Of a stretch of 64,000 bases of DNA, positions 2,425 through 16,094 are shown in pieces; the stretch's first letter is position 1; each line of letters begins with the position of its first letter. The notes under the pieces are model-generated. The model worked only from the letters and a program-made list of their open reading frames with translations. It ran no database searches and had not been told where the DNA came from. Position numbers and translations under genes: made by a program. The stretch is from Flavobacterium gelidicaeli. GTDB lineage: Bacteria > Bacteroidota > Bacteroidia > Flavobacteriales > Flavobacteriaceae. The stretch spans positions 310,001 through 374,000 of the forward strand of contig NZ_JABSNK010000001.1 of NCBI RefSeq assembly GCF_013294005.1, in the 5' to 3' direction.

Positions 2425-4959
2425 CTACAATTTTAAATTTCGCAATCTAAGTGCATTTGCAATCACAGAAACCGAACTAAAACTCATGGCCAAAGCAGCA
2501 ATCATTGGCGAAAGCAACAATCCGAAGAAAGGATACAACACTCCTGCCGCAATTGGGATTCCGATTACGTTATAAAAGAACGCGAAAAACAAATTTTGAT
2601 TGATGTTTTTCATCACGGCATGACTTAGTTTTTTAGCTTTTACAATTCCTTGTAAATCTCCTTTTACCAAGGTGATTTTGGCGCTTTCAATTGCCGCATC
2701 TGTTCCCGTTCCCATTGCTATTCCTACATTGGCTTGAGCCAAAGCTGGTGCATCGTTAATTCCGTCACCTGCCATCGCTACAATTTTACCTTCGGCTTGC
2801 AAACGTTTAATTTCGTTGAGTTTATCCTGTGGCAAACAACCAGCTATAAACGAAGTCAAATGCAGTTCATCGGCCACAGCCTTAGCCGTATTTTCATTAT
2901 CACCCGTTAACATAATCACCTCAATACCTTCCGACATTAACTCTTTAATAGCGTTTGCACTGGTGGTTTTAATAGCATCTGTAATGGCTACGAAACCTAC
3001 TGCAACTGCGTCAACTGCAATATAAGAGACAGTTTTTCCCAACTTTTGCTCTGCAATAACGGTGTTTTCTAAATCATTAGCGATAGTCGCTTTTACGTGT
3101 TCCATTAGTTTTTTATTTCCTAATGCCACTTTTTTACCCGCTACAGTTCCTACCACTCCTTTTCCTGTTACGGAATCAAAATCGTTAACTTCGGTTAAGC
3201 TGCTATTTTTCGCTTTCGCAAAATTGACTACGGCTTGCGCCAAAGGGTGTTCGCTATATTGATTTAGTGAAGCAATCAATTGAAGTAAATCCTGCTCATT
3301 ATTATGTACAGCCACCACTTTTTCTACTGACGGTTTCCCTTCTGTAATTGTTCCTGTTTTATCTGTAATCAATACATTTACTTTGTTCATTACCTCTAAG
3401 GCTTCGGCATTTTTAATCAGTACACCAGACTGCGCGCCTTTCCCAACTCCTACCATAACCGACATGGGTGTAGCCAAACCTAAGGCACATGGACAAGCGA
3501 TAATCAATACCGCAATAGCATTAATAAAACCGTACACTAATGCCGGTTCTGGACCATAAATTGCCCATACAAAAAAGGTAATTACAGCAACACTAACAAC
3601 GATAGGCACAAAATACTTCGCGATGCTATCTGCTAGTTTTTGGATTGGCGCTCTAGAACGACTTGCATCAGTAACCATTTGTACAATTTGCGCCAGCAAG
3701 GTTTCTGACCCTACTTTTTCTGCAATCATTACAAATGATTTTGTTCCGTTGATTGTTCCAGAGATCACCTCATCATCAACCGCTTTATCAACTGGAATAG
3801 GCTCTCCCGAAATCATCGATTCATCAATCGTGCTTTCGCCCTGAGTAATTTTTCCATCTACCGGAATTTTATCTCCGGGCTTAACGCGTAATAAATCGCC
3901 TTTTTTAATATCATGAATCGAAATCACTTTGTCTACGCCATCAACCACTAATGTAGCTTGTGTAGGCGCTAATTTTAATAATTCTTTTATTGCTCCACTA
4001 GTTTTACTATGTGCTTTTGCTTCCAGCAATTGCCCTAATAGTACTAAAGTCAAAATAACTGTAGCTGCTTCAAAATACAAATGAACGCTGCCCGTTTCCG
4101 TTTTAAATTCTGCTGGAAACAGCGATGGAAAAAACAATCCGAAAACACTAAATAAAAAGGCTACACCAGAACCAATTCCGATCAGGGTAAACATATTTAG
4201 ATTCCACGTTAAAACCGATTTATAGGCACGTACAAAAAACATACTACAGGCATAAAATACTACGGGAAGCGATAAGGCAAATTGAACCCAATTCCAACTT
4301 TCCATGCTCATGACTTTCATCAAAGGATTATTCGGAATCATATCTGACATGGCAATGATAAAAATAGGCAAGGTGAAAAATAGTGCTATTTTCATTTTAC
4401 GCCATAACTCATTGTAGGTTTTATTGTCATCGCTTTCGTCTGGTTCCATTGGTACTAAATCCATTCCGCAAATAGGACAATCCCCAGGACCGTCTTTGAT
4501 GATTTCAGGATGCATCGGACAAGTATATTGTACTTTTTGATTAACAACCGCTTCTTGAACTAAATCCATTCCGCATACCGGACAATCACCCGCTTTGTCA
4601 TAGACTTTATCGCCTTCGCAGTGCATCGGACAATAATATTTTCCTGCTGCTGCAGTATGATTGTGTGTATGAGAATGTGCTTTTTTAGTATTAGAATCCT
4701 TCGTACTACAGCAAGATTTTGCAGGTGTAGGCTCAGGACTCTTCTCTTCTGCAGTACTCATTTCTATACTGTAGTTTCCTGCAGCAGCTAAAGCATCTTG
4801 AAAAACAGTCAATGGAATATGGGTATCCATTGTAATAACTGCTTGTTTTGATTCTAGCGAAACAACTGCCTCAGCACCATCAATGGTATTCAGCGTTTTT
4901 TCTACTTTCTTACGACAACCGTCGCAGGACATTCCCGTAATTGTATATGTATGTACCAT
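2425..4959 (-). CDS. copA: Copper-translocating P1B-type ATPase with HMA and two HMBD modules
   Basis: An 844-residue inner-membrane pump that exports Cu(I) (possibly Ag(I)) from the cytoplasm using ATP. In order: an HMA domain with MSCDGC (C12, C15), a His-rich linker near 95-102, and two HMBD zinc-ribbon-like modules (about 108-134 and 145-171, each with CPMH...CPxCGMDL). Then come membrane helices, the transmembrane CPC motif (489-491), phosphorylation motif DKTGT (533-537), SEHP, GDGIND, and a final helix with MSFSSVS as in Cu(I) ATPases. It is the last gene of the copper island, 84 nt after the HMA-AraC regulator. The metal choice rests on CPC plus the MxxSS motif. Confidence 0.95.
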   Translation of the reverse strand: MVHTYTITGMSCDGCRKKVEKTLNTIDGAEAVVSLESKQAVITMDTHIPLTVFQDALAAAGNYSIEMSTAEEKSPEPTPAKSCCSTKDSNTKKAHSHTHNHTAAAGKYYCPMHCEGDKVYDKAGDCPVCGMDLVQEAVVNQKVQYTCPMHPEIIKDGPGDCPICGMDLVPMEPDESDDNKTYNELWRKMKIALFFTLPIFIIAMSDMIPNNPLMKVMSMESWNWVQFALSLPVVFYACSMFFVRAYKSVLTWNLNMFTLIGIGSGVAFLFSVFGLFFPSLFPAEFKTETGSVHLYFEAATVILTLVLLGQLLEAKAHSKTSGAIKELLKLAPTQATLVVDGVDKVISIHDIKKGDLLRVKPGDKIPVDGKITQGESTIDESMISGEPIPVDKAVDDEVISGTINGTKSFVMIAEKVGSETLLAQIVQMVTDASRSRAPIQKLADSIAKYFVPIVVSVAVITFFVWAIYGPEPALVYGFINAIAVLIIACPCALGLATPMSVMVGVGKGAQSGVLIKNAEALEVMNKVNVLITDKTGTITEGKPSVEKVVAVHNNEQDLLQLIASLNQYSEHPLAQAVVNFAKAKNSSLTEVNDFDSVTGKGVVGTVAGKKVALGNKKLMEHVKATIANDLENTVIAEQKLGKTVSYIAVDAVAVGFVAITDAIKTTSANAIKELMSEGIEVIMLTGDNENTAKAVADELHLTSFIAGCLPQDKLNEIKRLQAEGKIVAMAGDGINDAPALAQANVGIAMGTGTDAAIESAKITLVKGDLQGIVKAKKLSHAVMKNINQNLFFAFFYNVIGIPIAAGVLYPFFGLLLSPMIAALAMSFSSVSVIANALRLRNLKL

Positions 4960-5043
4960 GTTTCTCTATTAAAAATTATACTACAAATATCCGAATGAAA
5001 TTCTGTTTAGTCATTACACAATTCGGGAAGAGATTTGTATCAT

Positions 5044-5604
5044 TTATAAAGCGTCAATTTGTTTGCGATTTTTTTCTTTTATCTTTTTAAAATAAGTCGG
5101 AGTCATTCCCGTGACTTTCTTAAATTGATTACTCAAATGAGCCACATTGCTGTAGTTTAACTGCAATGCAATTTGGCTTAAACTCAGTTCGTCATAGACC
5201 AACAACTCTTTGGCTTTTTCGATTTTTTGAGCTATAAAATAATGTTCAATAGTAACACCTTCCACTTCTGAAAAAAGCTTACTCAATGCACTGTAATCTT
5301 GGTGTAACTCCTTTGCTAAAAACTCAGAGAAATTAACTTTTAATTTTTCATTTTGATAGTGCACTAAATCAATGATGAGGTTTTTAATTTTCTCAATAGT
5401 TTTACTAGTTTTATCTTCTAACAATTCAAAACCAAGTTCCTTAAGAGCCAATACTAACGGTTGCTTTTCTTCGTTGGTTAATTCCCGAGAAAGGATTACT
5501 TCGCCTAAATCTACCGAAACAACAGGAAGCGACATTTTTTCTAACACTTTCTTTACAGCCATTTCACAACGACCACAAACCATATTTTTTATATAAAGTT
5601 TCAC
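5044..5604 (-). CDS. HMA-AraC fusion transcriptional regulator
   Basis: 186 residues. Residues 1-65 form an HMA-like heavy-metal-binding domain with MVCGRC (C10, C13). Residues 90-180 form an AraC-type double helix-turn-helix, with the family pattern ALQLNYSNVAHLSNQFKKVTG. There is no ligand-binding cupin of the usual AraC kind, so the HMA domain is the likely sensor and copper or silver the likely signal (inference). It starts 4 nt after the DUF305 stop and precedes the P-type ATPase, so it probably controls the island containing it. Whether metal activates or represses cannot be seen. Confidence 0.85.
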   Translation of the reverse strand: MKLYIKNMVCGRCEMAVKKVLEKMSLPVVSVDLGEVILSRELTNEEKQPLVLALKELGFELLEDKTSKTIEKIKNLIIDLVHYQNEKLKVNFSEFLAKELHQDYSALSKLFSEVEGVTIEHYFIAQKIEKAKELLVYDELSLSQIALQLNYSNVAHLSNQFKKVTGMTPTYFKKIKEKNRKQIDAL

Positions 5605-5608
5605 TATA

Positions 5609-6088
5609 TTATTTTTTATTTTCTAAACGAATAATCATTTCATTCATTTGCTTAATCTCTTTTTCTTGAGCAACTATAATATCCTCAGCTAATTTTTTTA
5701 GTTCAGGATCTTTAAAATTCACATTACTACTTGTCATTATAGCAGAGGAATGATGAGGAATCATTGCTTTCATATATTGAATATCGCTAACAAAGGTTTG
5801 GGTTCTTAATAGAAATAACGTCCCACAAAATGAAACAGCAGCAAAGGTTATTATTGCTAAATTAGTTTTACGGTGGGGATACATTTTCCACATAAATAGC
5901 AACATATTAATTGCCATCGTTGCAATCATTAAAGTTGTCATGTAAAAGCGTGTTAGACTATTATGTATATGACTAAATTCTGCAACATTTAAAAACATTA
6001 CTAAATACATGATTACAAATGAAACTGCCATAATTAATGCAAACTTCATGTACGGATTTTTCTTTGCGTGTTTGTCGTTGTTTTCCAT
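5609..6088 (-). CDS. DUF305 membrane protein
   Basis: 159 residues with three predicted N-terminal membrane helices (about 12-32, 45-63, 78-96), then a periplasmic or cytoplasmic DUF305 helix pair with the family motif MIPHHSSAI (about 109-117) and a charged C-terminus. DUF305 proteins are often found beside copper and other metal efflux systems and the paired His residues suggest metal binding, but no activity is established. It sits in the copper island, 151 nt after the CusB-like lipoprotein and tight against the AraC regulator. The His-His motif is seen; the metal role is inferred. Confidence 0.8.
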   Translation of the reverse strand: MENNDKHAKKNPYMKFALIMAVSFVIMYLVMFLNVAEFSHIHNSLTRFYMTTLMIATMAINMLLFMWKMYPHRKTNLAIITFAAVSFCGTLFLLRTQTFVSDIQYMKAMIPHHSSAIMTSSNVNFKDPELKKLAEDIIVAQEKEIKQMNEMIIRLENKK

Positions 6089-6239
6089 AATAGTTTTTTT
6101 TTAAAAAAATTAAAATTACTTTACAATATATAACTCTCTACCTCCCTTAAATTATAAGATTCTAATATATTCTTATCTAATCCCCATTCATTCACTGAAA
6201 CCCTTTCACACTTTTGACATATTTAAAAAACATTTACGA

Positions 6240-7454
6240 CTACATTTTCATTCCCGCCATAGGATCTTTTCCTTTTCGGAATTCGTATTCGCTATTAACA
6301 GCATAAACACCGGTAATAACAATCTTTTTATTGGTATCTATTGTTGATGTAATTTCGATCATGCCATTAGACTCCAATCCTGTAGTTACCTTTAAATTTT
6401 CAAAAACACCATGACTTTTTTCGACCCATATAAAAGTAACTTTTTCATCTCGAACAACAGCATCAATAGGAACAAAAATCCCTTTTTGATTGGATTGTGT
6501 TACTTGAACATTTGCCTGCATTCCGGGTTTTAACAGCAAGCCTGGATTGGCTACTTCTAACTGAATCAATAGCAATCGTGTATCTGGATTAATCTCTGGA
6601 TTGATAAAAGAAATTGTCGCTTGTACCGACTTGGACGGAAAATCTACAAATGAAATCGTTGCCGTTTGCCCCAATCGCAAACTTTTGGCATAGTTGACAT
6701 TTACTTGGGTTTCCAACCAAAGAGTACTAAGGTTAGCAACTTTAATGATTGGAGCACCTTCCATGACATAACTTCCTTCAGTAGCCGTGATTTCGGATAT
6801 TGTTCCGCTGTAGCTGCTGTAAAAAGTGGTGTACGGAGACACTTCTTTGCTTTTTTTAACTGCCTCAATTTGTGTATTTGATAATCCGTAAAACAAAAGC
6901 TTTTGCTTGGCTGCCGCTACCATCGTTTTGGCATTTTTTCCAAAATCCCCTGGCATAGCGAGTTGACTATAAGCCGAAACATAATCTTGCTTAGCGATTG
7001 CTATTGGCTCACTATACAATTGATAAACTGCTTGTCCTTTTTGAATAAAATCACCTTCGGTTTTAAAATATAATTTTTCGATTCGCCCCACTGCTCTTGC
7101 CGAAATACTTTTTATTGCTTCGGGATTAACCGTCAAAACTCCAGTATAATTTCCTTGTTGACTTTGTTGTGACGTTCCAATTAAAGCTGTGCTGATATTC
7201 CCCAATTTAATTTGTTGGTCACTTAACGAAATCGAATTATAAGCCCCATTGTCTTTTTTCATAGGTGTTAATTCCATGTGGCAAATAGGGCATTTTCCGG
7301 GCTTATCTTCTTTAATTTGAGGATCCATCGAACAAGTATAATAGATACTTTCTTTGAACTCATGAGTTTCGTGTTTATCTTCATTTTTAGAATTACATCC
7401 CAAAACGAATATAAAACCAATTATTAAAAAACAAATTTTATGTAGCTCTTTCAT
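6240..7454 (-). CDS. CusB-like RND efflux adaptor, lipoprotein with HMBD
   Basis: 404 residues. A lipoprotein signal ends FVLGC (Cys20), so it is probably anchored by lipid rather than a helix. An HMBD module follows (YYTCSMDP...CPICHMELTPM, about 38-67), then biotinyl-lipoyl-like and alpha-hairpin segments, and beta-barrel/MFP domains (LWLETQVN, PGMQANVQV). It should bridge the inner-membrane CusA pump and the outer-membrane CusC channel and deliver Cu(I)/Ag(I). It is the second of two adjacent CusB-like genes and starts 2 nt after the first. The HMBD has CHMEL where others have CGMDL. Confidence 0.9.
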   Translation of the reverse strand: MKELHKICFLIIGFIFVLGCNSKNEDKHETHEFKESIYYTCSMDPQIKEDKPGKCPICHMELTPMKKDNGAYNSISLSDQQIKLGNISTALIGTSQQSQQGNYTGVLTVNPEAIKSISARAVGRIEKLYFKTEGDFIQKGQAVYQLYSEPIAIAKQDYVSAYSQLAMPGDFGKNAKTMVAAAKQKLLFYGLSNTQIEAVKKSKEVSPYTTFYSSYSGTISEITATEGSYVMEGAPIIKVANLSTLWLETQVNVNYAKSLRLGQTATISFVDFPSKSVQATISFINPEINPDTRLLLIQLEVANPGLLLKPGMQANVQVTQSNQKGIFVPIDAVVRDEKVTFIWVEKSHGVFENLKVTTGLESNGMIEITSTIDTNKKIVITGVYAVNSEYEFRKGKDPMAGMKM

Positions 7455-7456
7455 CG

Positions 7457-8701
7457 TTATTTCGTTTTTATAAAGCTTCCGCTATCAATTAAATACTGTG
7501 CATTTTGCGCTAAGCGATCTCCTACTACAACTCCGTCTAGCACTTGTACAAAACCATTTATCTCTAACCCTGTCGTTATTTTAGTAGCCTGAAAACCTTC
7601 GCCTTTTTTTACAAAAACCACTTTTTTATTCCCTAAACTAACCAATGATTCTTTTTGCAACCACAACCCTTTTTGGGGGTTGGCCTCCATTGATCCTTCA
7701 AGACGCAAACCAATAGGATATTTTAGTTTTTCATTATCGAGATACACTCTAATTCGGTTCGTTTTTTCTTTTGGATCTAATTGTGTTTCCACAAAATTTA
7801 CTTTGGCATTCACCACTTCATTAGCGTCTAATTCTGATTTAATCTGGATCGACTGATTGATCTTTACAAGACTATTGTAACCTTGGATAACATTAAAAAC
7901 AGCCCAAACTTTATCAGTATTTACTAATTTAAACACTACAGCACCCTTAGTTACATAATCGCCTTCTTTTAAACGCAACACTTCCGTAGTGCTATTTTGT
8001 TGACTGGTTTGATTTTGCGAATCACTATTTTCAGTACCATCTACAATTCCGTTTGCAGGACTATAAATTGAAACTACTGGATTTAATTTTTTGGCTGTAG
8101 CCAAAGCATTTACTTGACTAGTACTCATTCCGTAAAGCAACAATTTTTGTTTTACTGCCTTAATTATAGTAGCGTTTTGTGCATCATTTGCAATCAAATA
8201 AATAAAATTTTGCTGCTCTGTTTGCAACTCAGGACTGTACAAATCAAATAGTTTTTGTCCTTTTGTAACCCGTTGAAATTTACGATGCACATACATTTTC
8301 TCGATTCTCCCACTAATTCTTGCGGCGACATTCACACTTGAATTTGGATTATAAGTCACCGTTCCAGGTAAACTTATAGCACTTGCGATAACGGTATCTT
8401 TGACGGTTGTTGTTTCAAAATCGCCAACAACAAAACCATTAGCAGGCTGTAACAAAGCAGCAATAGCATTGCTATCTATTGGTTGATCCTCAGTAACTTT
8501 CTGAATTAAATCCATTCCGCAAATAGGACATTTCCCTGCTTCGTGCTTTATAATTTGAGGATGCATTGAGCAGGTGTAAATTTCTTCGTTATGACTGTGA
8601 GTTCCATGCTCATTTGAGTTTGAAACAAAATAATACACGCCAAAGCCAACCAATGCAATTAGTACAATCAACAAACTATATTTAAAATATTTATTTCTCA
8701 T
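7457..8701 (-). CDS. cusB: CusB-like RND efflux adaptor, membrane-anchored with HMBD
   Basis: 414 residues. An uncleaved or Sec-type N-terminal helix (about 8-26) is followed by an HMBD module (YTCSMHP...CPICGMDLIQ, about 42-70). Then come the membrane fusion core: two lipoyl halves around an alpha-hairpin (GRIEKMYVHRKFQ..., LKEGDYVTKGAVVFKL) and a beta-barrel/MP domain ending QYLIDSGSFIKTK. Acts as periplasmic adaptor of the tripartite Cu(I)/Ag(I) exporter. It overlaps the TolC-like gene by 1 nt, so the two are translated from one message. It has a Q/N/S/T-rich insert near 227-240. Clearly paralogous to, but not a copy of, the next adaptor downstream. Confidence 0.9.
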   Translation of the reverse strand: MRNKYFKYSLLIVLIALVGFGVYYFVSNSNEHGTHSHNEEIYTCSMHPQIIKHEAGKCPICGMDLIQKVTEDQPIDSNAIAALLQPANGFVVGDFETTTVKDTVIASAISLPGTVTYNPNSSVNVAARISGRIEKMYVHRKFQRVTKGQKLFDLYSPELQTEQQNFIYLIANDAQNATIIKAVKQKLLLYGMSTSQVNALATAKKLNPVVSIYSPANGIVDGTENSDSQNQTSQQNSTTEVLRLKEGDYVTKGAVVFKLVNTDKVWAVFNVIQGYNSLVKINQSIQIKSELDANEVVNAKVNFVETQLDPKEKTNRIRVYLDNEKLKYPIGLRLEGSMEANPQKGLWLQKESLVSLGNKKVVFVKKGEGFQATKITTGLEINGFVQVLDGVVVGDRLAQNAQYLIDSGSFIKTK

Positions 8702-9954
8702 TATTTTGTTTCTAATTGTTTTTCTATTGCGACTTGTGTGCTTAAAATAGCTTGTAATTTATCTAACTTATCCAGTTGCGCCATATTCAACGCTTCCCAA
8801 GAATCTAAGGCTACAAATAATTCTCCTGTATTATTTTGCCAAGCTAAAATTGCAGTATCATAGTTTCTTTTTAAAGCGGGAATGATGCTTTTATCACTAA
8901 TATCATATTGTTTGTGCAAGTTGATCAATGCCCTTTGCAAGCCCGAAAGCATTCCGGTTGCTTCATTTAAAATCATTTGCTTTTGCCATTCTAAACTTTC
9001 GTTTTTTATCTGGATGCTATTGATGGTTGCTTTATTAGATTTGGTAGACCAAGGCATCGGAATAGAAACCATCCCCATCAAAGAAAATTGTTGTGGCCTA
9101 TCACCAAAAGCAAACATATGATCGTATTTCACACCAAATTCAGGTTTCATTTTCGACTTTTCGATCGCGATTTTTAGTCCGTTTAACTCCTTTGTTTTTT
9201 CAATAGCTTTTATATCGCTACGGCTCTCAGAAAGTGAGATTGTATCAATCACCACAGCATTAAAATCTTTTAAATCTGCTTCTAAATCAATTTCGAAAAC
9301 AGTGTTTTTATCACTAGCCATCAATGTATTGAGCAGAAACCTTCTTTGAGCAATCTCATTTTGCAACGTAACTATTTCGCTTTGTAAACTGCTGTATTGT
9401 GATTTTGCTTTGTAATAAGTTGCGAGTTTATCACTATTGTATTTATAGCGTATTTCGATACTTTTAATCATGTACTCTAAAAGCAATAAATTCTCGTTGG
9501 CGATTTTTATTTTTTTATCTAAAACTCCCCATTGGTAATAATTGGTTTTAGCCAAAGCATTCAATTCATTAATGGTATAATTTTTATTTTCTACCTCAAC
9601 CGAAGACAACGCATTTGCATAATCCGCATCGGCTTTTAGCTTGGAAGCATTCGGGATCATTTGTGTAATTCCAACCATATAGGCACCCATTCCAGGATTC
9701 ATGCCGTCTGCTTTCCACATACTAGTAGCATAAGGCGTCATGAACAAACCCGTATTAAGCTGTGGAGCAGACCAACTTCTAGCACCTTTTGCGGAGGCAT
9801 CCATACTCTGAATTTCGGCATCATACATTTTCAGTTGTGGATTGTTTGTTTTTATTATTTCCAAAACCTGCTCTAATGACATCGTTTGTGCTTTTGCGAA
9901 AGCAGAAGACAAAATCAAACAACTAATCAGGATATATTTTTTAATGTTTTGCAT
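8701..9954 (-). CDS. cusC: TolC-family outer-membrane channel of the Cu/Ag exporter
   Basis: 417 residues with a signal peptide (cleavage near AFAKAQ, 18-23) and the long alternating helical repeats of outer-membrane efflux proteins, rich in Q, N, L and A heptads. It should form the trimeric duct across the outer membrane for the neighbouring RND pump. It overlaps the C-terminal CusA gene by 14 nt and the first CusB-like gene by 1 nt, indicating translational coupling. It is short for the TolC family (commonly 430-490) but no domain is obviously missing. Confidence 0.9.
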   Translation of the reverse strand: MQNIKKYILISCLILSSAFAKAQTMSLEQVLEIIKTNNPQLKMYDAEIQSMDASAKGARSWSAPQLNTGLFMTPYATSMWKADGMNPGMGAYMVGITQMIPNASKLKADADYANALSSVEVENKNYTINELNALAKTNYYQWGVLDKKIKIANENLLLLEYMIKSIEIRYKYNSDKLATYYKAKSQYSSLQSEIVTLQNEIAQRRFLLNTLMASDKNTVFEIDLEADLKDFNAVVIDTISLSESRSDIKAIEKTKELNGLKIAIEKSKMKPEFGVKYDHMFAFGDRPQQFSLMGMVSIPMPWSTKSNKATINSIQIKNESLEWQKQMILNEATGMLSGLQRALINLHKQYDISDKSIIPALKRNYDTAILAWQNNTGELFVALDSWEALNMAQLDKLDKLQAILSTQVAIEKQLETK

Positions 9955-11878
9955 CGATAAGATCTATTTTGCCTTTTGTTTTTAGCTCGTGTAATTTTGA
10001 CATTTCAAAAACAACTGGCGTTACTAATAATACATAAATAATGGATGTGATCGTACCACCAATTAACGGAACTGTAATAGGAATCATCACATCTGCACCT
10101 GTTCCCGTGGACCATAGAATAGGAATTAATCCAAAAAGAGCAACAAATACAGTCATTAATTTGGGACGCAATCGCTTAGCAGAACCTTCAATAACATATT
10201 CTCTTATAATATCTTCATTGATTGTCTCAGCAGTATTCCCGTGTTTCGCAACCATTTTCATCATGGCTTCATTAAGATAAATAGTCATCAACATTGCTGT
10301 TTCTATCGCCATCCCGAATAAAGCAATAAAACCTACTGCAACGGCAACTGATAAATTTATACCGTAGAAATACACCATAAAAACGCCGCCAATTAATGCA
10401 AACGGAACAGTAATCATGGTTATCATTGCTTCTTTCATCGAATTGTATGTAAAGTATAAAATCAAGAAAATAATACAAATCACAATCGGTAAAATCAAGC
10501 TCAAGGTTTTATTTGCCCGAAGTTGGTTTTCCCATTGTCCACTCCATTCTACATAATAGCCTTTGGGCATTTTGGTCATCATCGCATTCAATTTATCCTG
10601 GGCTTCTTTTACGGTACTTCCTAAATCACGATCCCTAACATTAAATAGCACGCTCCCTCTAAGCATAGCATTTTCGCTATTAATCATAGGAGGACCGTCC
10701 GAAATTTTAATATCTGCCACAGTTTCTAGCGGAATAGGACCAAAATCCATTGTTTGAACCTGCAATTTCTTCAATCCGTTAAGGCTACTTCTATATTCTT
10801 GAGCATAACGTGCATTGACTGAAAAACGTTGTCGTCCTTCAATTGTAGTTGTCAAAGTCATTCCACCAATCGCCGCTTCAACTACAGTATTAATATCGTC
10901 AACACTGAGACCATAACGACCAATCACTTCTCTTTTGGCTGAAATATCAATGTACTTCCCGCCTGTAATAGGTTCTGCAAACAAATCTTTTACGCCTTCT
11001 GTCCCTACTAATGCTCGTTTTATTTTTTGAGACAAAGCATCAATTGTATCCAGATTAGCACCATAAACTTTGATTCCCACATCGGTTCTAATACCAGTCG
11101 AAAGCATATTGATTCGGTTAATGATAGGTTGCGTAAACCCATTGGTCACACCCGGAATTTGAAGTTTATTGTTAATTTCAGTAATAATTTCACTTTTTGT
11201 AATGCCTGCTCGCCATTCATTATGAGGCTTTAGTAGCACAATAGTTTCAATCATACTAATCGGACTATTATCTGTAGCGGTATTTGCTCTTCCGGCTTTT
11301 CCTAAAACATGTGTCACCTCTGGAATTGATTTTATCAATTTATCCTGAACCTGTAATATTCGTTTGATTTCTGAATTAGAAACATCCGGCAAAGTCACTG
11401 GCATAAACAAAATCGAACCTTCATCTAAAGGCGGCATAAACTCTGATCCTAATTGCGTAAACATCAATCCGCCAATTAGCAAGGCAACAATATTGACGGC
11501 TAAAACAGTTTTTCGCCATTTTAAACAAAAAATTAAAATAGGCGTATAAAGCGTTTCTAGTTTTCTATTAATGGGATTTTTAGACTCTGGTCGTAATTTT
11601 CCTTTTAGCAAATAACTAATTAAAACGGGGGTTAACGTAATTGCCAAAAACGCATCCACTATTAGAATAAAAGATTTGGTCCATGCCAAAGGGCTGAACA
11701 ATTTACCCTCCATTCCAGTTAACAAAAAGACAGGCAGAAAAGAGGCAATGACAATTAATGTCGAATAGAAAACTCCTGGGCCAACTAACTTTGAAGAATC
11801 AGAAATAAGCTTCATTCTTTCTTCCGAAGACAAAGGGTCCTGTTCTTTTTTAAATATTTTTTTTAATAAATTTTTCAT
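9941..11878 (-). CDS. cusA: CusA-like RND pump, C-terminal half
   Basis: 645 residues matching CusA from just after transmembrane helix 4 to the end. It starts with a basic segment (KKIFKKEQD) and joins the family pattern at SSEERMKLI...GPGVFYSTLIV. It includes the second porter domain and helices 5-12. The three methionines that carry Cu(I)/Ag(I) in E. coli CusA have apparent equivalents: RINMLSTG (M258), AIGGMT (M340) and GPPMIN (M398). The inner-membrane pump runs on proton motive force. The start codon is 7 nt after the stop of the N-terminal half and in a different frame; a stop in this frame lies 24 nt upstream of the ATG. Either a stable split subunit or the product of a frameshift. 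Confidence 0.85.
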   Translation of the reverse strand: MKNLLKKIFKKEQDPLSSEERMKLISDSSKLVGPGVFYSTLIVIASFLPVFLLTGMEGKLFSPLAWTKSFILIVDAFLAITLTPVLISYLLKGKLRPESKNPINRKLETLYTPILIFCLKWRKTVLAVNIVALLIGGLMFTQLGSEFMPPLDEGSILFMPVTLPDVSNSEIKRILQVQDKLIKSIPEVTHVLGKAGRANTATDNSPISMIETIVLLKPHNEWRAGITKSEIITEINNKLQIPGVTNGFTQPIINRINMLSTGIRTDVGIKVYGANLDTIDALSQKIKRALVGTEGVKDLFAEPITGGKYIDISAKREVIGRYGLSVDDINTVVEAAIGGMTLTTTIEGRQRFSVNARYAQEYRSSLNGLKKLQVQTMDFGPIPLETVADIKISDGPPMINSENAMLRGSVLFNVRDRDLGSTVKEAQDKLNAMMTKMPKGYYVEWSGQWENQLRANKTLSLILPIVICIIFLILYFTYNSMKEAMITMITVPFALIGGVFMVYFYGINLSVAVAVGFIALFGMAIETAMLMTIYLNEAMMKMVAKHGNTAETINEDIIREYVIEGSAKRLRPKLMTVFVALFGLIPILWSTGTGADVMIPITVPLIGGTITSIIYVLLVTPVVFEMSKLHELKTKGKIDLIDAKH

Positions 11879-11885
11879 TGCCCTA

Positions 11886-13166
11886 CTATTGATTATTATC
11901 TAATTCTTCTTGTCTTTCCGAAATACTACGATAGGCATTTTCGACCATTACGATTCCGTCATCGACCACCACGCCAATTGCTAGTGCGATTCCGGTTAGT
12001 GACATAATATTAGACGAGATCCCAAAAGCTTGTAATAAAATAAATCCAATCGCTACTGAAATGGGTAATTGAATCAAAATAATCAAGGCACTACGCCAAT
12101 GAAAAAGGAATAATAAAATCACGACCGAAACGGCAATCATCTCCTCAATTAAAGTTCCTTTGACAGATTCAATTGCTTGTTCTATCAATTCGCTTCTATC
12201 ATAAGAGGTTTTAAAAGTTACTCCATCAGGCAAGCCTTTTTGGACTTCCTTCATTTTCAGTTTGACCGCTTTTATAACTTTATCGGCATTTTCGCCGTAG
12301 CGCATCACTACAATTCCGCCTACAACCTCACCTTCGCCATTAGCGTCAAAAACTCCTAATCGTAAATCACCACCCATTTGCACCGAACCAATATCGCTAA
12401 CTTTCACAGGAACCGAATTGTAATTCTTGATAGCAATGTCTTCGATATCTTTTATGTTTTTTATATAACCCAAACCTCTGACTACATAAGAACGGTCACT
12501 CATTTCAAATTTCCGACCACCAACATCATTATTGCTTGTCTTTACCGCTTTCATGACTTCCATCATACTCACATTATAGTATTGCATTTTAAGTGGATCC
12601 AAAACCAATTGGTATTGCTTTTCGAAACCGCCAAAAGAAGCAACCTCAGCAACGCCTGGAACGGTTTGCAAAGCAAATTTCACGTACCAATCCTGCAACG
12701 CTCTTTGCTCACCTAGATCCATTCCATTGGTTTCCAAATGATACCAAAACACATGCCCTACGCCTGTTCCGTCAGGACCAAGTGTGGGAACTACATTTTG
12801 TGGTAACAATCGTTGTGCATAATTTAATCGTTCCAGCACACGGGTTCTTGCCCAATATGGATCTACATCATCATCAAAAATGATGTAGACAAAACTCATC
12901 CCAAACATAGAAGAAGCACGAATGTTCTTGATTTTTGGGATTCCTTGTAAGTTTGACACCAAAGGATAGGTCACCTGATCCTCAATTACCTGCGGGCTTC
13001 TCCCCATCCATTCTGTAAAAACAATAACTTGATTGTCAGATAAGTCCGGAATGGCATCAATAGGATTTTGTTGCACACTATAAATTCCCCAAGCAAACAA
13101 GCAGCCAGAAACGATCAAGACTATTGCCCGATTTTTTAAGGAAAATGATATTAGTTTTTCGACCAT
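11886..13166 (-). CDS. cusA: CusA-like RND pump, N-terminal half
   Basis: 426 residues covering CusA helix 1, the first periplasmic porter domain and helices 2-4. It has the typical NPIDAIPDLSDNQVIV start, SMFGMSFVYIIFDD, and the helix-4 proton-relay motif VVVDDGIVMVENAYR, then stops at ELDNNQ with two consecutive TAG codons. A normal CusA runs about 1,030-1,060 residues; this half plus the next gene gives 1,071. The break falls in the cytoplasmic loop after helix 4, so no helix or porter domain is cut. It starts 51 nt after the DUF3347 lipoprotein; that gap carries a 7-bp inverted repeat (ATGAAAA-TGT-TTTTCAT, 13180-13196) of unknown meaning. Confidence 0.85.
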   Translation of the reverse strand: MVEKLISFSLKNRAIVLIVSGCLFAWGIYSVQQNPIDAIPDLSDNQVIVFTEWMGRSPQVIEDQVTYPLVSNLQGIPKIKNIRASSMFGMSFVYIIFDDDVDPYWARTRVLERLNYAQRLLPQNVVPTLGPDGTGVGHVFWYHLETNGMDLGEQRALQDWYVKFALQTVPGVAEVASFGGFEKQYQLVLDPLKMQYYNVSMMEVMKAVKTSNNDVGGRKFEMSDRSYVVRGLGYIKNIKDIEDIAIKNYNSVPVKVSDIGSVQMGGDLRLGVFDANGEGEVVGGIVVMRYGENADKVIKAVKLKMKEVQKGLPDGVTFKTSYDRSELIEQAIESVKGTLIEEMIAVSVVILLFLFHWRSALIILIQLPISVAIGFILLQAFGISSNIMSLTGIALAIGVVVDDGIVMVENAYRSISERQEELDNNQ

Positions 13167-13217
13167 AATAGTTTAATTAATGAAAATGTTTTTCATTTTA
13201 AAGGTTGAAACTGTGTA

Positions 13218-13907
13218 TTACAATTCTTTTGTAATTCCACCACAAGTCAACATTTCAGCTCCGTAATATGGATTTTTAATGTCTTTAATTTCACTAATCC
13301 AGTATCCATTTTTCCCTTGATTGTACATTGGGCAATAGTCTTGGTACAGTTTTTTATCTGTAGTAAACATTTTAATAAAGTTATGCATGTCAGCACTTAA
13401 TAAAGCAAATGCATTTCTTTGTGCAGCAATTTTACCAGCATTCTCAGTAATTGTTGCGGTGTGTTGTTTTGCAGCGTCAGCAATGGTGTTATATTGAGTC
13501 AATAAATCAGCTTCAATTTTGTCAGTGGTTGTTTTTTGTAAAGTTATTTCTAAAGCTTTACTTGATTCAGTCGCTAATGTGGCGTCATCGCTAGCTAAAG
13601 CATTTTTTAACTTTAGATAATCATTTAAAATCATATCGATTGAAAATGCCGATTTGCTTTTTGTAACGTCCATTTCTTTCACTTCTTCAATCACTTCTTC
13701 ATGGGCTACAGGAATCGTCAAGGCCATTCCGCATTTAGAACATTCTTCTCCTTTTTTACCGTGTACTTCAGGATGCATTTCACAAGAATATTGTTGGCTG
13801 TCTGCTGTTTCCGTGGTTGCTTTATCTGTTGTTTCTGATTTGTTGTCTTTACAAGATGCTACAGCAAAGACTGCTGATAAAAGACTGATTTTTAAGATGT
13901 TTTTCAT
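13218..13907 (-). CDS. DUF3347 lipoprotein with HMBD, copper island
   Basis: 229 residues. Lipoprotein signal ending AVASC (Cys19), a low-complexity T/E/A linker, an HMBD module (YSCEMHPEV...CSKCGMAL, about 40-64), then a helical DUF3347 domain (about 80-180). The C-terminal part has DYCPMYNQGKNGYW and ends in AEMLTCGG, close to the C-terminus of CusB-type fusions. DUF3347 domains are typical partners of Bacteroidota copper efflux systems and may pass metal to CusB. It is anchored in the periplasm, probably on the outer membrane. The Cys, Met and His residues are seen; metal transfer is inferred. Confidence 0.85.
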   Translation of the reverse strand: MKNILKISLLSAVFAVASCKDNKSETTDKATTETADSQQYSCEMHPEVHGKKGEECSKCGMALTIPVAHEEVIEEVKEMDVTKSKSAFSIDMILNDYLKLKNALASDDATLATESSKALEITLQKTTTDKIEADLLTQYNTIADAAKQHTATITENAGKIAAQRNAFALLSADMHNFIKMFTTDKKLYQDYCPMYNQGKNGYWISEIKDIKNPYYGAEMLTCGGITKEL

Positions 13908-13979
13908 TTTGATTTATTTTTATTGTTTTACTTCTAATTTTGTAATGCTACTGCGGTCTTATTTTTTATCAACAGTATT

Positions 13980-14342
13980 TTATTTTTCCTCTTTGGTCGC
14001 TTCTGCTCTGTCATACTGGCAACAGCCAGGAAGTGCATTGTAGGCAGTTTTTGTAGCTTGGAATTTCTCGCTGTCATAACCTACTGCCGCAATACGTTTT
14101 AAAATTTCTTCCCTAGTCGTTTTTGATGAGTCATAAGTTAGTGTAGCCATTTTAGAGTCCTTGTCCCAATCTACTAAGGCAATGTTCTTTTGCGTTCCTG
14201 CTTTTTCTATTTTAGTTTCGCACATACCGCAGTTTCCGAATATTTTTACGGTTTCGGTTTTCACGTTTTTAATTTGCGCAGTAGCTGCTGTGACTGATAA
14301 CAATAGAGTTATTGCTATCAATCCATTTTTAATTGATTTCAT
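13980..14342 (-). CDS. Periplasmic HMA-domain protein (copper-chaperone-like)
   Basis: 120 residues. Signal peptide of about 22 residues (SVTAATAQ), then one HMA fold with GNCGMC (C38, C41), LVDWDKDSKMATLTYD and a helix ending RIAAVGYDSEKF. The last 20 residues contain a second Cys pair (LPGCCQ). Cytoplasmic HMA chaperones are common; an exported one would bind Cu or other soft metal in the periplasm and may feed the adaptor proteins. It lies 72 nt upstream of the DUF3347 gene. No clear promoter in the 150-nt gap upstream; that gap holds small inverted repeats (TTGACA/TGTCAA at 14463-14484). Confidence 0.85.
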   Translation of the reverse strand: MKSIKNGLIAITLLLSVTAATAQIKNVKTETVKIFGNCGMCETKIEKAGTQKNIALVDWDKDSKMATLTYDSSKTTREEILKRIAAVGYDSEKFQATKTAYNALPGCCQYDRAEATKEEK

Positions 14343-14492
14343 ATAATAAAAAGTTTAGATGTGAATATGCTAGACCAATGAGTAAACAATAGCATAAGAG
14401 CCATGATTACTAATCCATAATAGCCGATAAATAAATGATTTAAAGCAATATTTGCTTTGAATTTGACACACTAATTGATGTCAAAAAAGAAT

Positions 14493-14858
14493 TTAGCCTA
14501 TTTTAGGAATAAGCCAAAGTGAAGAATATCCAGCAGAAGTGAAGGATACTGTTTGATAAAATTTTTGCTTTTCAGTCGAAAATTTGAAATTAGAGTTCTG
14601 CATTTCAAATTGAAAAGCAGATGGAATTGCTGTATTTACTGATGAACTACTGCATAAAGCCTGTCCACATTTTCCATTACAACCTTTGTGCTTGCTACTT
14701 TTAGAATGAGAGTCCTTACTACAACACTCTTTTTTCTTAGTTTTAGAAGACATTTCCATCGTACAAGAACCCCTGTCTGAATTTCCACACGCAAAAGTTG
14801 TATTTGGCATCATAAAGAAGCCAAACAAAACGATTAGTAAAATGTGAAATTTTTTCAT
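14493..14858 (-). CDS. Small secreted Cys/His/Ser-rich protein at head of copper island
   Basis: 121 residues, no family recognised. Signal peptide of about 23 residues (MMPNTTFA), then a segment about 24-72 dense in Cys with several His and Lys (ACGNSDRGSC, KKKECCSKDSHSK, HKGCNGKCGQALC), then a Cys-free C-terminal third ending IPKIG. At least ten Cys in the mature protein suggests soft-metal binding, like a metallothionein-like buffer in the periplasm or outside the cell (inference). It is the first gene after the framed promoter at 14875-14934 and so likely the most strongly controlled gene of the island. Confidence 0.75.
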   Translation of the reverse strand: MKKFHILLIVLFGFFMMPNTTFACGNSDRGSCTMEMSSKTKKKECCSKDSHSKSSKHKGCNGKCGQALCSSSSVNTAIPSAFQFEMQNSNFKFSTEKQKFYQTVSFTSAGYSSLWLIPKIG

Positions 14859-14874
14859 TTTCTTGTAATTAGAA

Positions 14875-14908
14875 CAAAATTAGTAAAACTATATTAATTA
14901 TGGTCAAA
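14875..14908 (-). promoter_or_regulatory. Promoter at the head of the copper island
   Basis: On the minus strand TTTG (14905-14908) and TAATTTTG (14875-14882) are 22 nt apart, about 16 nt before the start codon at 14858. The leader would be only about ten nucleotides. The -7 element overlaps the last three bases of one arm of the flanking inverted repeat and the -33 element lies in its loop. Confidence 0.65.
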
Positions 14909-14934
14909 ATTTAATGTTAATATAGTTTTACTAA
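14880..14934. repeat. Perfect 18-bp inverted repeat, candidate operator
   Basis: Arms TTAGTAAAACTATATTAA (14880-14897) and its exact complement (14917-14934) enclose a 19-nt spacer that holds the -33 element. The arms are AT-rich with no T-run, so a transcription terminator for the upstream holin-like gene is unlikely; a repressor or activator site is the better reading. The binding protein is unknown; AraC proteins usually prefer direct repeats. Confidence 0.7.
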
Positions 14935-14954
14935 TCAATAGTGTAGGAGTTGTT

Positions 14955-15299
14955 TTATTTAGTATCCCCAAAAATAGCATACATAAGCGACTGAGAAACA
15001 GATAAAATAATACTAAACAATAAGGCTGTAAAAAAAGTATCTACACCAAAACCGCCTACTATATTATCGCATAAAATAATAATAAGTGCGTTGATCACTA
15101 GCAAAAACAAACCCAATGTTATAAATGTGATTGGTAATGTTAAGATCACTAAAATAGGTTTGATAAATATGTTTAACAATCCTAAAACAACCGCCACAAT
15201 TAAAGCCGTTGTAAAATTTGCGACGTGAACACCCGTCATTAAATTAGAGATAAGCAGCACTAATGCTGAGGTAATTAACATTCTTAAAAGAAGTTTCAT
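14955..15299 (-). CDS. Phage holin family 4-type small membrane protein
   Basis: 114 residues with four hydrophobic helices (about 4-22, 28-48, 54-76, 88-108). The motif GLLNIFIKPILVILTLPITFITLGLF region (split here: GLLNIFIKPI then LTLPITFITLG) matches the 4-TM Phage_holin_4_2/YvlD-like family. These are ordinary chromosomal proteins of unknown function, not evidence of a prophage. It stops just upstream of the copper-island operator and starts 30 nt after the hydrolase gene, so it likely shares that message. Confidence 0.8.
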   Translation of the reverse strand: MKLLLRMLITSALVLLISNLMTGVHVANFTTALIVAVVLGLLNIFIKPILVILTLPITFITLGLFLLVINALIIILCDNIVGGFGVDTFFTALLFSIILSVSQSLMYAIFGDTK

Positions 15300-15329
15300 A
15301 GTTTTAAATTTACGTATTAATACAATTTA

Positions 15330-16094
15330 TTAGTTGTCTAAAAATTCTTTAGCAAATTGATGAAATAATTTAGGATTTTCGGCATGAAGCCAATGTCCTG
15401 CATTTGGAATGGTTTCAAAAACGGCTTTTGGAAAATGTTTTTTTATAGCTTCAAAATCACTGTCCTTAATATAACCTGAATTACCGCCACGAATAAAAAG
15501 TGTTGGTTTATTGTAAATAGCATCAATAGGAAGCGCCACCCCTATTTCGTCTAATTTTTTATTAAAAACTGCTAAATTAAAACGAAAAGCCAATTGTCCA
15601 GGCTCTTGCCAAAACAAACTTTTCATTAAAAACTGTCTGGTGCCAAAATCAGTTATGTATTCTGAAAGTGTATCTTCCACTTCAGATCGGCTGGGTTTTT
15701 TAGCAAAATCTACTGCATTTAATCCCGCAAGAATCGTTTGATGATGCTGCGGATAGAATTTTGGTCCAATATCAGCAACGATTAATTTATGGTTTTTTTC
15801 TGGATAATTACAAGCAAACAGCATAGCGGTTTTGCCTCCCATAGAGTGACCGATGACGTCTACTTGTTCTAAATTATGCCCCACACAATAATCATAAATA
15901 TCTTTGGCCATGATCTCATAATTAAAATCGTCTGATTGCATACTACGACCGTGGTTGCGCATGTCGAGCATGTGTACCTCAAAACCTTCGGTACTGAATT
16001 GTGTTCCGATTGTTTTCCAGTTATCTAGCATTCCTAGGAATCCATGTAGGATTAAAAGCGGTTTTCCTTCTCCTTCTATTTTTGAATAAAGCAT
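15330..16094 (-). CDS. Alpha/beta hydrolase (YbfF-like esterase)
   Basis: 254 residues of a cytoplasmic alpha/beta hydrolase. LHGFLG (16-21) forms the oxyanion turn, MRNHGRS the strand-4 region, IGHSMGG (81-87) the nucleophile elbow with S84, and NAGHWLHAE near the C-terminus supplies the catalytic His. Length and motifs fit the YbfF group of carboxyl esterases; the natural substrate is unknown. The 142-nt gap to pdxJ upstream is filled by a nested palindromic repeat. Confidence 0.85.
   Translation of the reverse strand: MLYSKIEGEGKPLLILHGFLGMLDNWKTIGTQFSTEGFEVHMLDMRNHGRSMQSDDFNYEIMAKDIYDYCVGHNLEQVDVIGHSMGGKTAMLFACNYPEKNHKLIVADIGPKFYPQHHQTILAGLNAVDFAKKPSRSEVEDTLSEYITDFGTRQFLMKSLFWQEPGQLAFRFNLAVFNKKLDEIGVALPIDAIYNKPTLFIRGGNSGYIKDSDFEAIKKHFPKAVFETIPNAGHWLHAENPKLFHQFAKEFLDN

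Follow-up and report, generated by a model that had tools for sequence, protein, structure and literature searches.

A perfect inverted repeat with 19-bp arms surrounds the promoter of a probable copper operon in the window, the 64,000-nucleotide stretch of Flavobacterium gelidicaeli DNA that was analyzed. The repeat is real, conserved in two sister species, and ordinary in kind, and we conclude that it is probably a lineage-specific DNA operator of the copper operon. An inverted-repeat search returned a left, promoter-distal arm at 14917 to 14935 (ATTAGTAAAACTATATTAA on the minus strand) and a right, promoter-proximal arm at 14879 to 14897 (TTAATATAGTTTTACTAAT on the minus strand), each 19 nt long and 100% complementary to the other, with a 19-nt spacer at 14898 to 14916 between them on the same strand. 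The first-pass annotation had described perfect 18-mer arms around a 19-nt spacer; the spacer was correct and so were the arms, each of which extends one base further outward. The start given there, 14875, includes the remainder of the −7 promoter box beyond the arm.

The −7 box, TAATTTTG at 14882 to 14875 on the minus strand, fits the consensus TAnnTTTG. The same motif was found within the last 70 bases of 98 of 101 orthologous upstream regions, these being the window and 100 loci fetched from among the matches listed for the Cys-rich protein that the first gene of the operon encodes, and promoter counts leave out the three loci in which no box occurs within that distance (L060, L090, and L098). 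Because 98 of the 101 regions carry the box, the promoter itself is well supported. TAnnTTTG is the consensus of the flavobacterial sigma-A −7 box, which spans −12 to −5 in F. psychrophilum (PMC9723704), a position rule that predicts a start near 14870. Relative to this predicted start, the left arm would occupy −65 to −47, the spacer −46 to −28, and the right arm −27 to −9, with the dyad centered at 14907, or approximately −37. A TTTG at 14908 to 14905 (minus strand), the putative −33 element, lies inside the spacer and 22 nt from the −7 box, and the right arm shares the first four bases of that box. Thus, the arms do flank the putative −33 element and one arm does end within the −7 box, as had been noted from the sequence initially. 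Upstream, and co-directional with the operon, is a gene for a Phage_holin_4_2 family membrane protein (14955 to 15299, minus strand).

A TTAACA box at 14915 to 14920 (minus strand) overlaps the left arm, its TTAA forming the inner end of that arm. Of the 98 promoters of the Cys-rich gene, 55 have TTAACA 30 to 32 nt ahead of the −7 box, versus 1 of 59 control promoters, and 46 of the 98 carry the form TTTAACA; the window reads ATTAACA. The box was considered as a copper-specific activator site and that claim was dropped, because TTTAACA spaced in this way from a −7 box occurred at 107 places versus 67 in the reversed control (12 genomes, rows summed) and several of these places recur at promoters other than the copper one.

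When the 120 bases upstream of the Cys-rich gene were shuffled 3,000 times with dinucleotides preserved, no perfect inverted repeat exceeded 15 bp, a length reached once. A chance origin of the 19-bp repeat was therefore rejected, in agreement with the low probability first assigned to it. Across the 101 loci, perfect repeats of at least 11 bp were present at 7 (1.0 expected from shuffles) and those of at least 19 bp at 3 (0.0 expected); these counts, like all others and the tests, are uncorrected for relatedness among loci. Moreover, the first-pass annotation had named a genome search for the arm as a check, and in the 4.06-Mb genome the exact arm occurred exactly twice, both times within this repeat. 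Allowing one mismatch added no further place in the genome, and the 62 places found with up to three mismatches did not exceed the reversed control (80 places), matches with two or three mismatches included. The dyad as a whole, with up to three mismatches, had a single occurrence. As the arm is unique to this repeat in the genome, a dispersed repeat or the end of a mobile element was rejected.

Beyond this genome, a loose pattern of the dyad matched 3 of 398 genus genomes, that of the window included, and a search across 84,980 species, each represented by a single genome in a set that may omit the window's own, returned only Flavobacterium frigoris and F. frigidarium. Both repeats sit at the same promoter, and a perfect left arm was present only in these three species. 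Compared with F. frigoris, the window differed at 0 of 38 positions in the arms (0 of 19 in each) and at 4 of 19 in the spacer, a contrast with a Fisher P value of 0.0098 in a comparison made after the repeat had been seen; the upstream flank differed at 8 of 22 positions and the leader at 2 of 20. F. frigidarium, whose Cys-rich protein is 53% identical, has an unchanged left arm, a right arm with one difference, at the first base, and a spacer that has changed a great deal. The right arm has homologous sequence in five further relatives (L044, L045, L048, L049, and L051), where the place of the left arm pairs with it at 9 to 11 of 19 positions. Two of the five (G271 at L044 and G019 at L045) carry another repeat, of 12 bp, the right arm of which, like that of the window's repeat, begins 15 nt ahead of the −7 box.

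Symmetry at the geometry of the window was also averaged over the other promoters. With the −7 box as the anchor, the mean over 95 promoters was 7.01 of 19 paired positions versus 7.02 for permuted pairs. Anchored on TTAACA, 52 promoters gave 8.33 versus 7.90 for permuted pairs, a value reached by 15 of 2,000 permutations, and the z score was 2.46 at the right register versus −0.08 to 1.98 at eight slid registers. A genus-wide operator dyad of this geometry was therefore not retained, the signal being absent with the −7-box anchor and weak with the TTAACA anchor.

The operon that the promoter would serve begins with a gene at 14493 to 14858 (minus strand) for an apparently exported protein of 121 amino acids. 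The protein contains seven Cys residues and an apparent signal peptide, read from the sequence by eye, consistent with the Cys-rich secreted neighbor proposed at first, and had no match in Pfam or NCBIfam. Relatives were found in at least 182 of 299 genus genomes, its own included. The remainder of the probable copper operon, at 2425 to 14342 (minus strand), encodes families that include a MerP-like HMA protein, a DUF3347/heavy-metal-binding protein, a split CusA/CzcA-family pump, an outer membrane efflux protein, two CusB-type proteins, a DUF305 protein, an HMA-like/AraC regulator, and a metal P-type ATPase. Judging from these gene families, the metal is probably copper, and the genes from 14858 down to 2425 presumably form one transcript.

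If the repeat is an operator, its identical 19-bp half-sites, one inverted relative to the other, would lie on either side of the −33 region, and a dimeric regulator bound to both arms would cover the interval between the −33 and −7 elements together with the first half of the −7 box. The bound regulator would keep RNA polymerase off the promoter, and a rise in copper would cause it to release or rearrange. We infer protein binding to the arms, repression as the sign of control, and copper as the signal. The operator proposed in the first-pass annotation is favored by the recurrence of the promoter (98 of 101 regions), by a repeat that is not dispersed, and by arms that are conserved while the spacer diverges; against a simple reading of it, the perfect repeat is present in three species only, the other promoters have little or no symmetry at this geometry, and the repeat does not covary with the regulator encoded in the operon. 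Confirmation would mean that copper control in this group has a candidate operator with known coordinates, at a clean promoter on which the HMA-like/AraC fusion could be tested as the copper sensor.

That fusion, at 5044 to 5604 (minus strand), is the only DNA-binding protein recognized among the eleven operon frames scanned and is the candidate reader of the operator. Profile matches placed an AraC-type helix-turn-helix in it (HTH_18, E value of 1.3e-17), preceded by an N-terminal CopZ/HMA-like region whose CopZ-type match at residues 2 to 59 (E value of 0.00025) fell below the cutoff of the model. Relatives of the fusion were found in 47 of the 101 loci, the window included, with 5 of the matches partial, in a search that spanned approximately 12.5 kb downstream at each locus and less at a few. 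By eye, the two recognition-helix regions were nearly the same across an alignment of 45 of the 47 matches, in which some rows were partial or cut by stops; the key comparison was redone on full-length sequences. The regulators of the window and F. frigoris are 67.7% identical and their repeats are shared, whereas those of F. frigoris and G271 are 97.8% identical and their repeats are different. Thus, covariation of the operator with the AraC-type regulator was not found among the window, F. frigoris, and G271. The operon's own HMA-like/AraC protein is still the single most likely reader, the alternative being an unlinked regulator, but because regulator and repeat do not travel together, the assignment is a guess and a doubtful one. 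More doubtful still is the wider proposal that the repeat is the operator of a self-regulating, one-piece copper sensor, with a CopZ/HMA-like region fused to an AraC DNA-binding domain, that replaces MerR-, CsoR-, or CusRS-type sensors in Flavobacterium copper operons. Copper control in this group was not described in the titles or abstract openings of the open-licence papers listed.

The layout has partial counterparts among known systems. The RhaS/RhaR-type operators of AraC-family proteins in Escherichia coli consist of half-sites of approximately 17 bp, inverted, separated by a spacer of approximately 16 to 17 bp, and located beside the promoter; the AraC-family protein is encoded nearby, and the proximal site is upstream of the −35 element. 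Set against that layout, the repeat described here (19+19+19) likewise has long inverted half-sites, a long spacer, and an adjacent promoter, and an AraC-family regulator is encoded within the same operon (5044 to 5604). It differs in that the arms are 19 bp long, 19 nt apart, and perfectly identical, that the proximal arm falls between the −33 and −7 elements rather than upstream of −35, and that the regulator does not track the arms of the candidate operator. In MerR/CueR copper operators, the dyad is centered between the two promoter elements at a metal efflux promoter with a long interval. Here too a dyad occurs at a metal efflux promoter with a long element interval (TTTG and the −7 box are 22 nt apart), but its center, at 14907 (approximately −37), is on the −33 region and not between the elements, and no MerR-type protein was found among the eleven operon frames scanned.

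The strongest competitor of the operator is a role at the RNA level: transcription of the upstream membrane protein gene would run into the repeat, and the resulting hairpin would end or stabilize that transcript and shield the copper promoter from read-through. The stop codon of that gene is only 19 nt from the repeat, and an inverted repeat soon after a stop codon is what an intrinsic terminator would look like; however, the stem is A+T rich, the loop is 19 nt, and a T run is missing. A terminator consensus scan of 14400 to 15400, restricted to loops of 3 to 8, found none here. If read through from upstream, the repeat would fold at −18.1 kcal/mol (z of −5.7), yet the arms hold 2 G/C of 19 and only TTTG follows them. 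Across loci, the folding z averaged −1.87 where the Phage_holin_4_2 gene is just upstream (34 loci) versus −0.12 elsewhere (64 loci; Mann-Whitney P value of 9e-5), and −0.01 where another co-directional frame ends within 160 nt upstream (31 loci, with orientation assigned mechanically). Copies of the upstream gene without the operon seem at first to favor the hairpin: over the 85 nt after the stop, z averaged −1.64 at 40 copies of the upstream gene that lack a copper operon and −1.64 at the 34 copper loci. But 29 of those 40 copies carry the repeat of another promoter, which explains much of the average, and three (L245, L249, and L255) have, by inspection, ordinary stems followed by 8 to 9 T, unlike the repeat in the window. 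The 12-bp repeat at L044 and L045 (G271 and G019) is lengthened in RNA by G-U pairs. The sense strand was not clearly more stable than the antisense strand (one-sided paired P value of 0.07). Moreover, the repeat is upstream of the start predicted by the position rule (PMC9723704) and should thus be absent from the mRNA of its own promoter. We conclude that a role as an RNA hairpin or terminator is less likely than one as an operator, and the hairpin that shields the copper promoter is, in itself, unlikely.

Two further explanations would leave the symmetry between arms with little meaning. Each arm, which contains TAGT-AAA-ACTA, could be a separate site for a small dimeric repressor, the symmetry between arms being incidental, and the region of the right arm does read ACTA-n3-TAGT in L048, L049, L051, and L058, even where the left arm is no mate. 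Separate sites would leave the perfect identity of the 19-bp arms unexplained. The genome has three BlaI-family matches, one of them weak, and no such motif was found within the 3.3-kb loci of the two that are full length, so a BlaI/CopY-type site was rejected on the evidence of those two loci; we regard separate sites as quite unlikely. Alternatively, template switching during replication may have perfected an imperfect repeat by quasi-palindrome correction, with a symmetry of little function. L049 has an imperfect counterpart at the same place (11 of 19; the 52 promoters besides the three average 8.3), while the counterpart in L051 pairs at 9 of 19, scarcely more than this average. Correction of this kind appears very unlikely as an account of the repeat, given that perfection or near perfection has been retained in three species despite a diverged spacer and coding sequence.

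Other repeats were encountered in the same survey. In relatives without a copper operon at this place, the gap after the membrane protein gene contained a repeat resembling GGGTTGCAAAA-N9-TTTTGCAACCC that overlaps a −7 box in 29 of 40 regions (L236 to L275; for example, L237). The gene that follows reads as trigger factor in the five loci looked at, one of which was checked against Pfam (Trigger_N, E value of 4.5e-23), and no copy of this repeat with up to three mismatches was found in the window's own genome. The N9 spacing resembles that of CIRCE. The copper promoter of L057 (G286) carries a different repeat, TGAAACAAAAT-N10-ATTTTGTTTCA, with a near copy in L059 (G025); its right arm takes in the last part of the −7 box, an arrangement similar to that of the trigger factor repeat.

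Within the operon, the coding sequence of the CusA-type pump is divided between two adjacent frames of 426 and 645 amino acids (9941 to 13166 in the window, minus strand). Both test pieces were located near each other at 47 loci; they were in different frames at 38 of these, the window among them, and in the same frame at 9, with gaps of varying length. Since the pieces are often in different frames with varying gaps, the arrangement suggests an old split of the gene and not a mistake in sequencing.
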